Source: Trichosporon coremiiforme
Taxonomy: Eukaryota > Basidiomycota > Tremellomycetes > Trichosporonales > Trichosporonaceae
Direction: 5' to 3'
Assembly (NCBI GenBank): GCA_039545355.1
Contig: BCJJ01000006.1
Location: forward strand, 1,645,686 to 1,709,685
Length of the DNA stretch: 64,000 nucleotides
Shown: positions 53,929 through 58,399 of the stretch, piece by piece
How positions within the stretch are numbered: the stretch's first letter is position 1
Layout: each line of letters opens with the position of its first letter
Position numbers and translations under genes: made by a program
The notes under the pieces: generated by a model
Databases searched by the model: none
Seen by the model: only the letters and a program-made list of their open reading frames with translations
Told to the model about the DNA's origin: nothing

Positions 53929-56046
53929 CTACTCCGCCGGCCGCTGCACGACGTCTTTGAGCTCGATCCATGACGGCATGTTGTCAACAGTGACGCCGAG
54001 GTTCTTCGCATCGGCTGCCAGGCCCTCGACATCGGCCAGCATCTGCGCCTTGAAGCGCTCGTCGTCGGCTCCATCGCCTTGCGCCGCGTTCTGCGACCCG
54101 AACAGGGAGAAGCCACCCTTGCGTGTCTTGCGGTGTCGCCGCAGCAGATCCTCCGTCTTGCGGACCTGGGCCAGGATCTGTGCATAGTTGCTCATCACGT
54201 GGTCGGCAACCTGACCCGCCCACGCCGCTTGGTACTTGGCCTTCAGCGCAGGCCGCGCATCGAAGAAGGCGTGTACCGGCTTCAGCAGCTGTGGCACAAA
54301 GTACGAGGCCGCTGGCGGACCACTGGTCTTACTTCCAGACGCACGGAACTGCGATGCAACAGAACGGACCAACTTGAGCGGCTCCGCGCATCGCTTCTGC
54401 AGGATGAGCACAATGCGCTCCGCGTATGGCGTCGTGGACAGAGACAGGGGAAGGTCGACACCGAGCTCGACGAGTTCCGGCAGCGCCGCAATCTTTTCGA
54501 GAAGCAAGTCGCTGTCGCCGATCGCGGACGCTGCGAATCGGAGTGCCGCATCGTCCTCCTCTTCCTTGAAGTTGACAAGCTGGTTCGACAGCCACAGCCC
54601 GTATCGCGAGACGATCTGCAGGCTGAGCCGCCAGAAGCGGTGCGTCAGCTCTGGGAGGAAAGTGTCGCGAGCCCAGCAGCGCTGGAACGCGGTCCATGCC
54701 GCCTGGCTTTGCGGCAGGTGCCAGGGTGAAGTTGCTGATCCCGTCGTGCTGTTCAGCGCGGCGTCAAACGCCGTCACTATCTCCTTCCACCGCAGCTGGA
54801 AGTAGACCGGCAGTTGCCATCTCCGCTCGAAGGCGGAGTACTCTGGCGACTCGCGCACAGCAATGATGGCGTCGATGCTCGAGGCATAAGACTCAAAGAA
54901 TGTCAGGAACTGATGCGTCGCAGTGTAGTGCTTGTGCAGCTCGTCTGGCCGACCAGCCGCGAAGATGACGCTGCCGAGATTGTCCACGACAGACTTGGAG
55001 ATCGCTGGCCACAGTACGCGCGAGAAGAAGTCGAAGTGCACGCTCAGAGCCTGGGCCATCTTAATCAGCGGTTGGTACACCTCCACCTGGTCCAGGATGC
55101 GGTTGTAGAGCACAGCCAACGGCGTCGAGGGCTTTAATCGCTGCGCGCTCGGCGCGGCAGAGTCGGGAGTAGTAACCGGGTCGGAGAGCGCCGCGGCTCG
55201 GATGTTACTCCTGCACCACGTCTCGACGTCATCCCGGACAACGCTCTCGGCGTCCTCCCACGCTTCGATTACATCGTATGTTCGCAAGCACTGTCGAATG
55301 TGCGCTTCGTCCTTGGCCTCAAGAGCCGTCGTCAGGAGCGTCGAGAGGTCGTTGTTCAACCGTGTCCGTAGCGTGTCGATGCGCGGCTCCGCAACGTCGG
55401 CCAACTTGCAGCCCTCCTTCCGCACCTTGTTGCGCAAGTACACGAGCTGCGTGTACTCGCCTGCGAGACGCGCGACGGCTTTGGGTCGCTCTGCGTCGTC
55501 TGAAGCCGTATCCAGCGACTCAGCGCGGGTCAACGTCTCAAACAATCGCTGCAGGAGCTCAAGCAGCGCTTTCTCCTCACGCAGCGTTGCTCGCTCGTCA
55601 AGCTTTGCCTGCACCGCGTCTTGGTGAGACGCGAGCACGTCGCGCACCACCTCCACTTCTCCCCTTAGCATCTCCAGCGGTTTCTGTAATCGCTTTAGGC
55701 GGTCGCTCTCTCCCCGCATGCCTGTGCCGAGCGAGATGAACTCCTCATAGTCGTCGTTGATGAGCTGCACGAGCTCTTCTCTCAGCACACCGAGGTATGA
55801 CCGCAGCTCTCCGCGAAGCTCATCAAGGGGGATGTGAATTCTTGATAAGAGGAACGCATCGACATCAAAGTTTGCTGAAGAGAGGAGGGCGTGGTCGTGC
55901 GATAGCGGGACGAGGGAGGGAAGGTCGAGTGAGTGCGCGGACGACGTGGAGGCGCGGGGTGCGGAGCCGTTCACTGTCGGGTCGGAGCTGGGCCCGGCGG
56001 CGTTTTCGGTGGCCAGCGGATCTGATGACTCCACTGCCGCCGTCAT
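53929..56046 (-). CDS. COG2: Conserved oligomeric Golgi complex subunit 2
   Basis: A single exon of 705 aa. After a Ser/Pro-rich start, the conserved COG2 N-terminal region appears: SSANFDVDAFLLSR, PLDELRGELRSYLGVLREEL, LINDDYEEFISLGTGMRG, followed by long helices typical of CATCHR-family tethers (RLFETLTRAESLD, YTQLVYLRNKV). The C-terminal part contains KAKYQAAWAGQVADHVMSNYA and ends LKDVVQRPAE. COG is the eight-subunit tether for retrograde vesicles at the Golgi; subunit 2 is in lobe A. The gene is unusually intron-free for this genome and divergent from COX20 across 212 bp. Confidence 0.83.
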   Translation of the reverse strand: MTAAVESSDPLATENAAGPSSDPTVNGSAPRASTSSAHSLDLPSLVPLSHDHALLSSANFDVDAFLLSRIHIPLDELRGELRSYLGVLREELVQLINDDYEEFISLGTGMRGESDRLKRLQKPLEMLRGEVEVVRDVLASHQDAVQAKLDERATLREEKALLELLQRLFETLTRAESLDTASDDAERPKAVARLAGEYTQLVYLRNKVRKEGCKLADVAEPRIDTLRTRLNNDLSTLLTTALEAKDEAHIRQCLRTYDVIEAWEDAESVVRDDVETWCRSNIRAAALSDPVTTPDSAAPSAQRLKPSTPLAVLYNRILDQVEVYQPLIKMAQALSVHFDFFSRVLWPAISKSVVDNLGSVIFAAGRPDELHKHYTATHQFLTFFESYASSIDAIIAVRESPEYSAFERRWQLPVYFQLRWKEIVTAFDAALNSTTGSATSPWHLPQSQAAWTAFQRCWARDTFLPELTHRFWRLSLQIVSRYGLWLSNQLVNFKEEEDDAALRFAASAIGDSDLLLEKIAALPELVELGVDLPLSLSTTPYAERIVLILQKRCAEPLKLVRSVASQFRASGSKTSGPPAASYFVPQLLKPVHAFFDARPALKAKYQAAWAGQVADHVMSNYAQILAQVRKTEDLLRRHRKTRKGGFSLFGSQNAAQGDGADDERFKAQMLADVEGLAADAKNLGVTVDNMPSWIELKDVVQRPAE

Positions 56047-56868: not shown

Positions 56869-57021
56869 ACGTAGAGCTTGTTACACGCATTACTACATTT
56901 TGCATGCAGAACACACCGTTCCACTTATAACAATATGCAGAGATTTCATCGACTCGGCTAGGCACAACGACACACTATGGCGCTATGGAATGAAGGAAAG
57001 TATAATATGTAATGAACCATT

Positions 57022-58399
57022 CTAGAGGTCGGCGTCGTCCTCGTCGGGAAGGGGGGCGGCAGCGGCGGCCTGGAGCTCCTGCTCGTACCGGGACATGAGG
57101 TTGGAGTCAACCTGGACCTCGGCGGGCATCAGGGCGGGGGCGGCGACAAGCTCGAGCTGCTGGTTGCCGGTGAGCTTGCGGGCGAGCCAGAGGAAGGGCT
57201 TCTCGAAGTTGTAGTTGGACTTGGCCGAGATCTCGAAGTACTGGAGGTTCTTCTTGCGGTGGAAGGTGACGTTGCCGGTCTTGACCTTGCGCTCCTTGAC
57301 GTCGACCTTGTTNCCNCAGAGAACGATGGGGATGTTCTCNCAGACACGCTCGAGGTCACGGTGCCAGTTNGGGACGTTCTTGTAGGTGATACGCGAGGTA
57401 ACGTCGAACATGATGATACCGCACTGTCCCTGGATGTAGTAACCGTCACGGAGACCACCGAACTTCTCCTGGCCGGCGGTGTCCCAGACGTTGAAGAGGA
57501 TCTCACCCTGGTGGTGTCAGCGTTCCGTGTCGCGGTATCAGATTGGGGTTGTCGATTTTTGGGTGAATTGGAGGCTGAGGCTTCGACGTCATTCCGCGCA
57601 CCACTCAGAGCCGATCGGGGTCGCAGAGCAGGTGGAATCGTCGTCCGGAGTTCTGCGCTGGAAGAAAGCGCGGACAGAGGCGAACGATTACGACGCGAGT
57701 CGGCGAATAAGCGATGGGCTGGTGGCAAGTCGATCGAGGCAGGTTTGATTGCCGGCGCCCGAAATCAAATCTGCAGGCCACATCGCCATTGCCTCCAGTT
57801 CACGCAAACGACGTCCGTCGAACAGGCAGTTGGGGGGCGGATACGTACAACGGTGGTGTGGAACTTCAGGGGGTGGACCTCGACACCGAGGGTGGCTGAC
57901 GGGCGTTAGCGGACGGCCTGAGTGATGGGGCAGCTGACCGCCGAGCAGGGCGAGCGGCGGCGACAGCATGTGCTGGCAGACTTACCAATGTACTTCTTCT
58001 CGAACTCGCCTGTAGAGACGGTTAGCAATCTTGACACGTTACAGCTTGAGCTACACACCGGAAAGGTGACGCTTGACGAAGGTGGTCTGAGTTTTGTCAG
58101 CGTCATCGAAAACAACCACAAAAGCTGATGGAGCTGTTACTCACCTTGCCTGTTGAGCAAAAGCGATGCAAGGTATATCAGAGAGCGGGTCAGAGCGGGT
58201 CCGTGGGGGAAAAATCGATGTCAGTTACTGATCACAAGAAGTTGTGATTGCTATGCTTACCCTGCACAAGTCAGCAAAACGTCACACAAACAGACCGCAG
58301 TAGCTCATCGAGAAGACCAGCTCTCCGCACAAAACTCACGGTACCACCGTCACCGCAAAGGACGAGCTTGAAAGTAGCAACGGGCTCCTGCTGCGACAT
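57022..58399 (-). CDS. GSP1: Ran GTPase (GSP1), nuclear transport; contains a 1-nt exon
   Basis: Seven exons: 58399-58340, 58261 alone, 58149-58145, 58086-58059, 58009-57986, 57895-57849 and 57507-57022, which total 651 nt and give exactly 216 aa, the canonical Ran length. The motifs are P-loop GDGGTGKT, switch I area [17 protein letters not shown], switch [21 protein letters not shown], the guanine motif [25 protein letters not shown], and the acidic tail [10 protein letters not shown]. Ran-GTP drives import and export through nuclear pores and spindle assembly. Exon 2 is a single G between a canonical acceptor (GTGCAG) and donor (GTAAGC), and exon 3 is only GCAAG. Four N bases (57313, 57316, 57340, 57370) lie in the last exon, all at third codon positions. 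The last intron is 341 bp. Confidence 0.93.

Follow-up and report, generated by a model that had tools for sequence, protein, structure and literature searches.

Exons of a single nucleotide are already known, from plants as well as from fungi. In Arabidopsis the one-nucleotide exon of APC11 was established with cDNA and reporter constructs (PMC4674806), and the plant APC11 and VPS55 exons of this size are documented by RNA-seq and RT-PCR (PMC8831610). A fungal example, in the CYP621A gene of Fusarium, is backed by 18 RNA reads (PMC12940212); for Cryptococcus neoformans, one sentence of a 2014 paper speaks of exons "as small as 1 bp" (PMC3990503), a statement that is overlooked, at least in the available portions of the later text, by the 2026 claim of a first fungal one-nucleotide exon (PMC12940212). 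The candidate described here is a single G in the Ran/GSP1 gene of Trichosporon coremiiforme; what it adds to the known cases is its location in the P-loop of a GTPase and a neighbouring exon of only 5 nt, both of which are unusual traits. The original prediction, made from the DNA letters, had called one-nucleotide exons extremely rare and had named APC11; very rare they are, but with VPS55, CYP621A and Cryptococcus the Ran case is less isolated than was supposed. Among the literature matches listed, in which subscription papers are sparsely covered, no title or abstract beginning describes a one-nucleotide exon in Ran.

The Ran gene and its reading frame at G58261

The window, that is, the whole stretch of 64,000 nucleotides analysed, carries on its minus strand a gene which, read with canonical GT-AG introns, has a coding sequence of 651 nt and encodes 216 residues (Table 1). 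The G1 P-loop GDGGTGKTTF and the acidic C-terminus DEDDADL identify the product as Ran/GSP1; it matches yeast Gsp1 in the PDB with an E-value of 2.2e-119 and no gaps through the P-loop, is 99% identical to Trichosporon asahii Ran, and falls into Pfam family PF00071. On the minus strand GTGCAG (58267-58262), the G at 58261 and GTAAGC (58260-58255) follow one another directly: a canonical acceptor and a canonical donor stand on either side of one base, and the frame needs that base, which together with GC of the next exon makes up the P-loop glycine codon, followed by AAG for lysine. The place and context of the one-letter exon had been predicted in just this form, along with introns of 78 and 111 bp with normal ends, a following exon of 5 nt, the length of the coding sequence and of the protein, and its identity as Ran, and all of these were reproduced on re-reading. 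The Ran gene has as neighbours a reading frame of the XAP5 family (PF04921; 58996-59487), which is on the opposite strand, and, on the same strand as Ran, one for COG2 (53929-56046).

Table 1. Exons, introns and a branch-site-like element of the Ran gene, listed 5' to 3' along the gene; positions are those of the window
Feature	Position	Strand	Description
Exon 1	58340..58399	-	60 nt; 20 residues; 3' end GGTACC
Intron 1	58262..58339	-	78 nt; GTGAGT...GTGCAG
Branch-site-like GCTGAC of intron 1	58270..58275	-	branch A 9 nt upstream of the 1-nt exon
Exon 2	58261..58261	-	single G; base 1 of the P-loop Gly codon G/GC
Intron 2	58150..58260	-	111 nt; GTAAGC...CAACAG
Exon 3	58145..58149	-	5 nt, GCAAG; remainder of Gly, and Lys
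Intron 3	58087..58144	-	58 nt; GTGAGT...ACTCAG; branch CTGAC 10 nt from exon
Exon 4	58059..58086	-	28 nt; TTFVKRHLS
Intron 4	58010..58058	-	49 nt
Exon 5	57986..58009	-	24 nt
Intron 5	57896..57985	-	90 nt
Exon 6	57849..57895	-	47 nt
Intron 6	57508..57848	-	341 nt
Exon 7	57022..57507	-	486 nt with stop; contains four N

All chains of GT-AG or GC-AG introns that encode the conserved N-terminus (29 residues) were enumerated, both for the window and for the second Ran copy of the genome, C5. When at most three introns are permitted, with a minimum length of 30 nt, exactly one chain exists per copy, of the same structure in both, and it is still the only one when the limits are relaxed to five introns and 20 nt; no chain of two or fewer GT-AG introns encodes the conserved Ran N-terminus. 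The argument that the P-loop cannot be formed without the G, on which the original prediction had relied, holds in the sense that no other canonical path is present in either copy. If one end may be non-canonical, three alternatives open up in each copy: a GT...CA intron (189 nt; 186 nt in C5), a TG...AG intron, and an exon GGTAAG followed by a CA...AG intron. As the first two yield the same mRNA as the one-nucleotide exon, cDNA alone, which had been named as the means of deciding the matter, cannot tell these readings apart and is insufficient.

Five alternative products were computed from the gene model. Skipping of the G leads to a stop at codon 49 and skipping of GCAAG to one at codon 55, while retention of intron 1 or intron 2 ends the frame at codon 43 or 30, respectively. 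When both tiny exons are skipped the frame is kept, giving 214 residues without Gly-Lys; apart from two positions that are X owing to N, these agree throughout with the T. asahii model in the database. Messages including both G and GCAAG would read ACCGGCAAGACC, those resulting from skipping ACCGCAAG or ACCACC.

Splice signals and chance expectation

An initial intron set, gathered without supervision, comprised 150 candidate units, but the reversed control gave 100; roughly two-thirds of the set was noise, and it was dropped. The splice-site model built on it ranked the internal acceptor at the 1.4th percentile in the window (C5, 17.7th) and the donor GTAAGC at the 32.7th, values on which nothing is based. 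A second set of 39 introns took its place, chosen for a GTRNGY donor, a YAG acceptor, a CTRAC branch site 5-16 nt from the acceptor and open frames (4 introns in the reversed control); it tells what is common within its selection limits only. In it the acceptor is CAG in 30 of 39 introns, GCTGAC is the commonest branch hexamer (17 of 39), the donor is GTAAGC in three, and in 34 the distance from branch A to exon is 6-10 nt. The signals at the Ran G, namely a GTAAGC donor, a CAG acceptor and a GCTGAC branch site, are ordinary among these selected introns.

In Ran introns 1, 3, 4, 5 and 6 the branch A lies 9-12 nt from the exon. The prediction of branch-like text in both flanking introns stands for intron 1, with its GCTGAC, but not for intron 2, where no branch site lies as near to the acceptor as is usual; its CTGAC elements are 40 and 71 nt from the acceptor, both of them present in the C5 copy as well, and a CTGAT is 28 nt away. 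Intron 2 may therefore splice less readily, which would fit a removal of intron 1 before it and weakens the case for the exon a little. A descent of intron 2 from a duplicated 3' end of intron 1 is not supported, the local alignment score of 19 being reached by 171 of 2000 shuffles and surpassed by two other pairings of intron ends within the Ran gene, which score 20.

How often such a site would arise by chance was estimated from 528,000 strand-bases of the host genome with Ran masked, the reversed sequence serving as control, and scaled to the interval of 190 nt, in which 110 positions are usable. AG/G/GT occurs 433 times (reversed, 524), corresponding to 0.09 expected sites, and YAG/G/GTRNG 32 times (reversed, 37), corresponding to 0.0067; a branch site with YAG/G/GTRNGY occurs once (reversed, once), and the resulting 0.0002, based as it is on one occurrence, gives the order of magnitude only. 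The Ran G site exceeds chance expectation. In the whole 42.0 Mb genome CTRAC-N3-9-CAGGGTAAG is found at four places, namely the two Ran copies and a pair of eL37 genes, and the reversed pattern of CTRAC-N3-9-CAGGGTAAG at five, so that there is no genome-wide excess and the site is rare rather than enriched; its weight lies in the position, where the reading frame requires it. GTGCAGGGTAAGC is present at five other places in the genome, of which about 60 nt on each side were viewed.

The ribosomal protein eL37 genes (PF01907; C5:695295 and C17:627205, loci L039 and L040, around position 1510) contain tiny exons of their own: as read here, their 5' coding exons measure 3 (ATG), 6 (GGTAAG, Gly-Lys) and 14 nt. 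A one-nucleotide exon was considered there too and rejected, as this reading breaks the frame and the site is the 6-nt GGTAAG exon.

The second Ran copy and the Ran proteins of relatives

Hybrid Trichosporon species with two parental subgenomes have been described, of which T. coremiiforme alone has both subgenomes closest to T. asahii, and RNA-seq data for the hybrids, T. coremiiforme among them, and for T. asahii have been published as 100-base paired reads (PMC6642101, in the portions available). The 42.0 Mb assembly holds two Ran copies, on C5 and C6, and the one-nucleotide exon is not confined to one locus: the C5 copy has it at the same site and retains the G, both flanking dinucleotides, GCTGAC, GTAAGC, CAACAG, GCAAG and GTGAGT. 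Between the window and C5, 24 of the 190 columns of the interval differ, one difference falling into the 44 columns around the G and 23 into the other 146 (Fisher p = 0.011, for a block picked after the alignment had been seen). The identical run spanning the G is 33 columns long, and the alignment has nine more that are as long or longer, including two, of 35 and 44 columns, that lie entirely within intron 6. The 216 encoded residues do not differ between the copies, two in each being X owing to N; the coding sequences differ at three bases, none of them in exons 1-4. Because the copies are close relatives and identical runs of such length recur, conservation of the G between them is weak evidence, support rather than proof. 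A 465-column identical run (57007-57471) covers exon 7 and some downstream sequence with the same four N, while the introns differ; it may reflect either assembly collapse or gene conversion.

For a wider view, 278 different Ran-family proteins were collected as the best 120 matches to each of three queries, a sample that is biased in being clustered at 90% and in that queries 2 and 3 themselves are without Gly-Lys. The G1 motif is intact in 273 of the 278, two of these (P0003 and P0126) having variant motifs flagged by a narrower G1 pattern only, and one plant protein (P0031) is truncated. The other four (P0004, P0022, P0034 and P0067) are broken at the Gly-Lys junction, and all four are from Tremellomycetes, T. 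asahii being placed there by genus: Gly-Lys and nothing more is missing from the models of T. asahii, Apiotrichum porosum and Kwoniella bestiolae, and in that of Cutaneotrichosporon cavernicola eleven foreign residues replace it. The models of Naganishia and Phaffia are intact, so that four of the six Tremellomycetes recognised by name among the best 120 matches per query are affected; unnamed entries may add either kind. Ran devoid of the P-loop lysine should not bind nucleotide, and for this reason the Gly-Lys-less models are most likely failures of gene finders over tiny exons; they would be compatible with a hidden 6-nt exon and with the 1 + 5-nt arrangement alike. The three models, and the garbled fourth, are probably wrong and in that case mislead work on structure and function.

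A scan of prokaryote genomes for Ran returned 11 loci, none titled as a fungus. One of them (L041), on contig NZ_JAGRPU010000074.1 of the bacterium Endozoicomonas sp. ISHI1, is a Ran-like gene with 69% identity in its best segment and a match spanning query residues 6-211; it may represent either eukaryotic contamination or transfer.

Readings of the site and comparison with known systems

G58261 is very probably a genuine, constitutively included one-nucleotide exon of the Ran/GSP1 gene of this hybrid Trichosporon. This reading from the genomic sequence draws on the single GT/GC-AG chain that encodes the P-loop in each copy, on the low chance expectation (about 0.0002) of a branch site with AG/G/GT, on the identity of the G and its flanking sites in C5 in spite of the differing columns of the interval, on the four relatives whose gene models break at the same junction, and on the alternative products, of which four stop early and the fifth lacks Gly-Lys. 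If instead one non-canonical end is accepted, a single 189-nt intron would suffice: it would have the ends GT...CA and be followed by a 6-nt GGCAAG exon, or have the ends TG...AG and start behind an exon 1 lengthened by the G. Two of the three alternatives enumerated above are covered in this way; ends other than GT-AG, GC-AG and AT-AC do exist, at 0.257% of annotated fungal introns (PMC7072748, as far as its available text goes). Such an intron would, however, have to ignore a CAG acceptor one base on or a GTGAGT donor one base earlier, and the internal branch site with AG/G/GT would have arisen by chance (about 0.0002 to 0.007) and been retained in both copies, all of which makes it improbable. 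Its required ends score about -15 bits in the first splice-site model, a value that adds nothing independent, given that the training of this model had been confined to GT and YAG ends.

The 6-nt exon GGTAAG (58261-58256), with a CA-donor intron leading to exon 4, would likewise encode Gly-Lys, and the eL37 gene of the same genome appears to use an exon of this very sequence; yet in both copies it is followed by CATAGC, which is no donor, and the downstream CAG/GCAAG/GTGAGT would be fortuitous, so that hardly any credence is due to it. An assembly error is also highly improbable: the true 3' end of intron 2 would have an extra G (CAG/GGCAAG), leaving an ordinary long intron 1 and a 6-nt exon, and the assembly is indeed imperfect here, as the four N shared by exon 7 of both copies tell, but both copies read CAACAGGCAAGG and, differing at so many columns of the interval, are not simply collapsed.

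If the one-nucleotide exon is accepted, introns 1 and 2 would most likely be removed consecutively, because one nucleotide offers no room for the two sets of splicing factors together. The first to go would be intron 1, which has a strong donor and a well-placed branch site and acceptor; its removal would join ACC to the G and thereby place the donor ACCG/GTAAGC next to exon 1. Intron 2 would then be spliced to the 5-nt exon, and exons 2 and 3 would together give GGCAAG, the Gly-Lys of the GTP-binding P-loop. As to its origin, one base was probably lost from a 6-nt GGCAAG exon and a cryptic AG/G/GT in the upstream intron probably rescued the frame, a loss-and-rescue scheme of the kind proposed by Nelson and Syed for Fusarium CYP621A (PMC12940212, available text). 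It is also conceivable, if rather unlikely, that the 1 + 5-nt split of the P-loop is old, conserved and possibly regulated in Trichosporonales and Tremellales, splicing setting the output of Ran. Working Ran would then come from inclusion of both tiny exons, a Ran that is in frame but has lost the P-loop lysine would come from their joint skipping, and retention of intron 2 would give a dead message. Should RNA confirm the one-nucleotide exon, a GTPase that ranks among the most conserved would have a catalytic P-loop pieced together, in each gene copy of a hybrid, from one exon of 1 nt and another of 5 nt, and the Ran exon would be a compact natural test of how the spliceosome deals with exons that cannot accommodate two sets of factors.

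Neither of the two introns is of the U12 type. Donors of that type follow ATATCCTT/GTATCCTT, and those of introns 1 and 2 are GTGAGT and GTAAGC. Genes for U12 spliceosomal RNA were detected in one fungus only, Cutaneotrichosporon oleaginosum (PMC7072748, available text), whose genus is close to Trichosporon. Stwintrons resemble the Ran arrangement, by the accessible descriptions, in being pairs of U2 introns of fungi with obligatory consecutive removal. In the [D1,2] type the inner intron is inserted into the outer donor, separating its base 1 from base 2, whereas in Ran exon 1 ends with ACC, the entire GTAAGC lies beyond intron 1 and the mRNA would keep the one base that separates the two introns, so that introns 1 and 2 are not a stwintron of this type. 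A term search of the available part of a stwintron paper (PMC5639578) found neither microexon nor recursive splicing, and that of PMC8022950 gave only a mapping setting.

Closer to Ran are the one-nucleotide exons themselves. Those of APC11 and VPS55 are likewise found in conserved housekeeping genes and were overlooked by annotation; unlike the Ran exon they are from plants, that of Arabidopsis APC11 is an A, they have been tested with reporters, RT-PCR or RNA-seq, and VPS55 is in some plants also alternatively spliced (PMC8831610, available text). The 1-bp exons of C. neoformans belong to the same fungal class as Ran's, and the accessible text names no gene (PMC3990503). CYP621A differs from Ran in being a P450 gene, in that its G is the middle base of the glycine codon, in having RNA reads behind it, the Ran exon being predicted from DNA, and in that a 5-nt neighbour exon is not mentioned in the available part of the paper. 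In other respects the two are alike: each is a nuclear fungal gene in which AG/G/GT encloses an exon consisting of G, by which the frame is restored in a conserved glycine motif, and models go wrong at the exon, probably for the four relatives in the case of Ran and, for CYP621A, in all transcript models but one (PMC12940212, available text).
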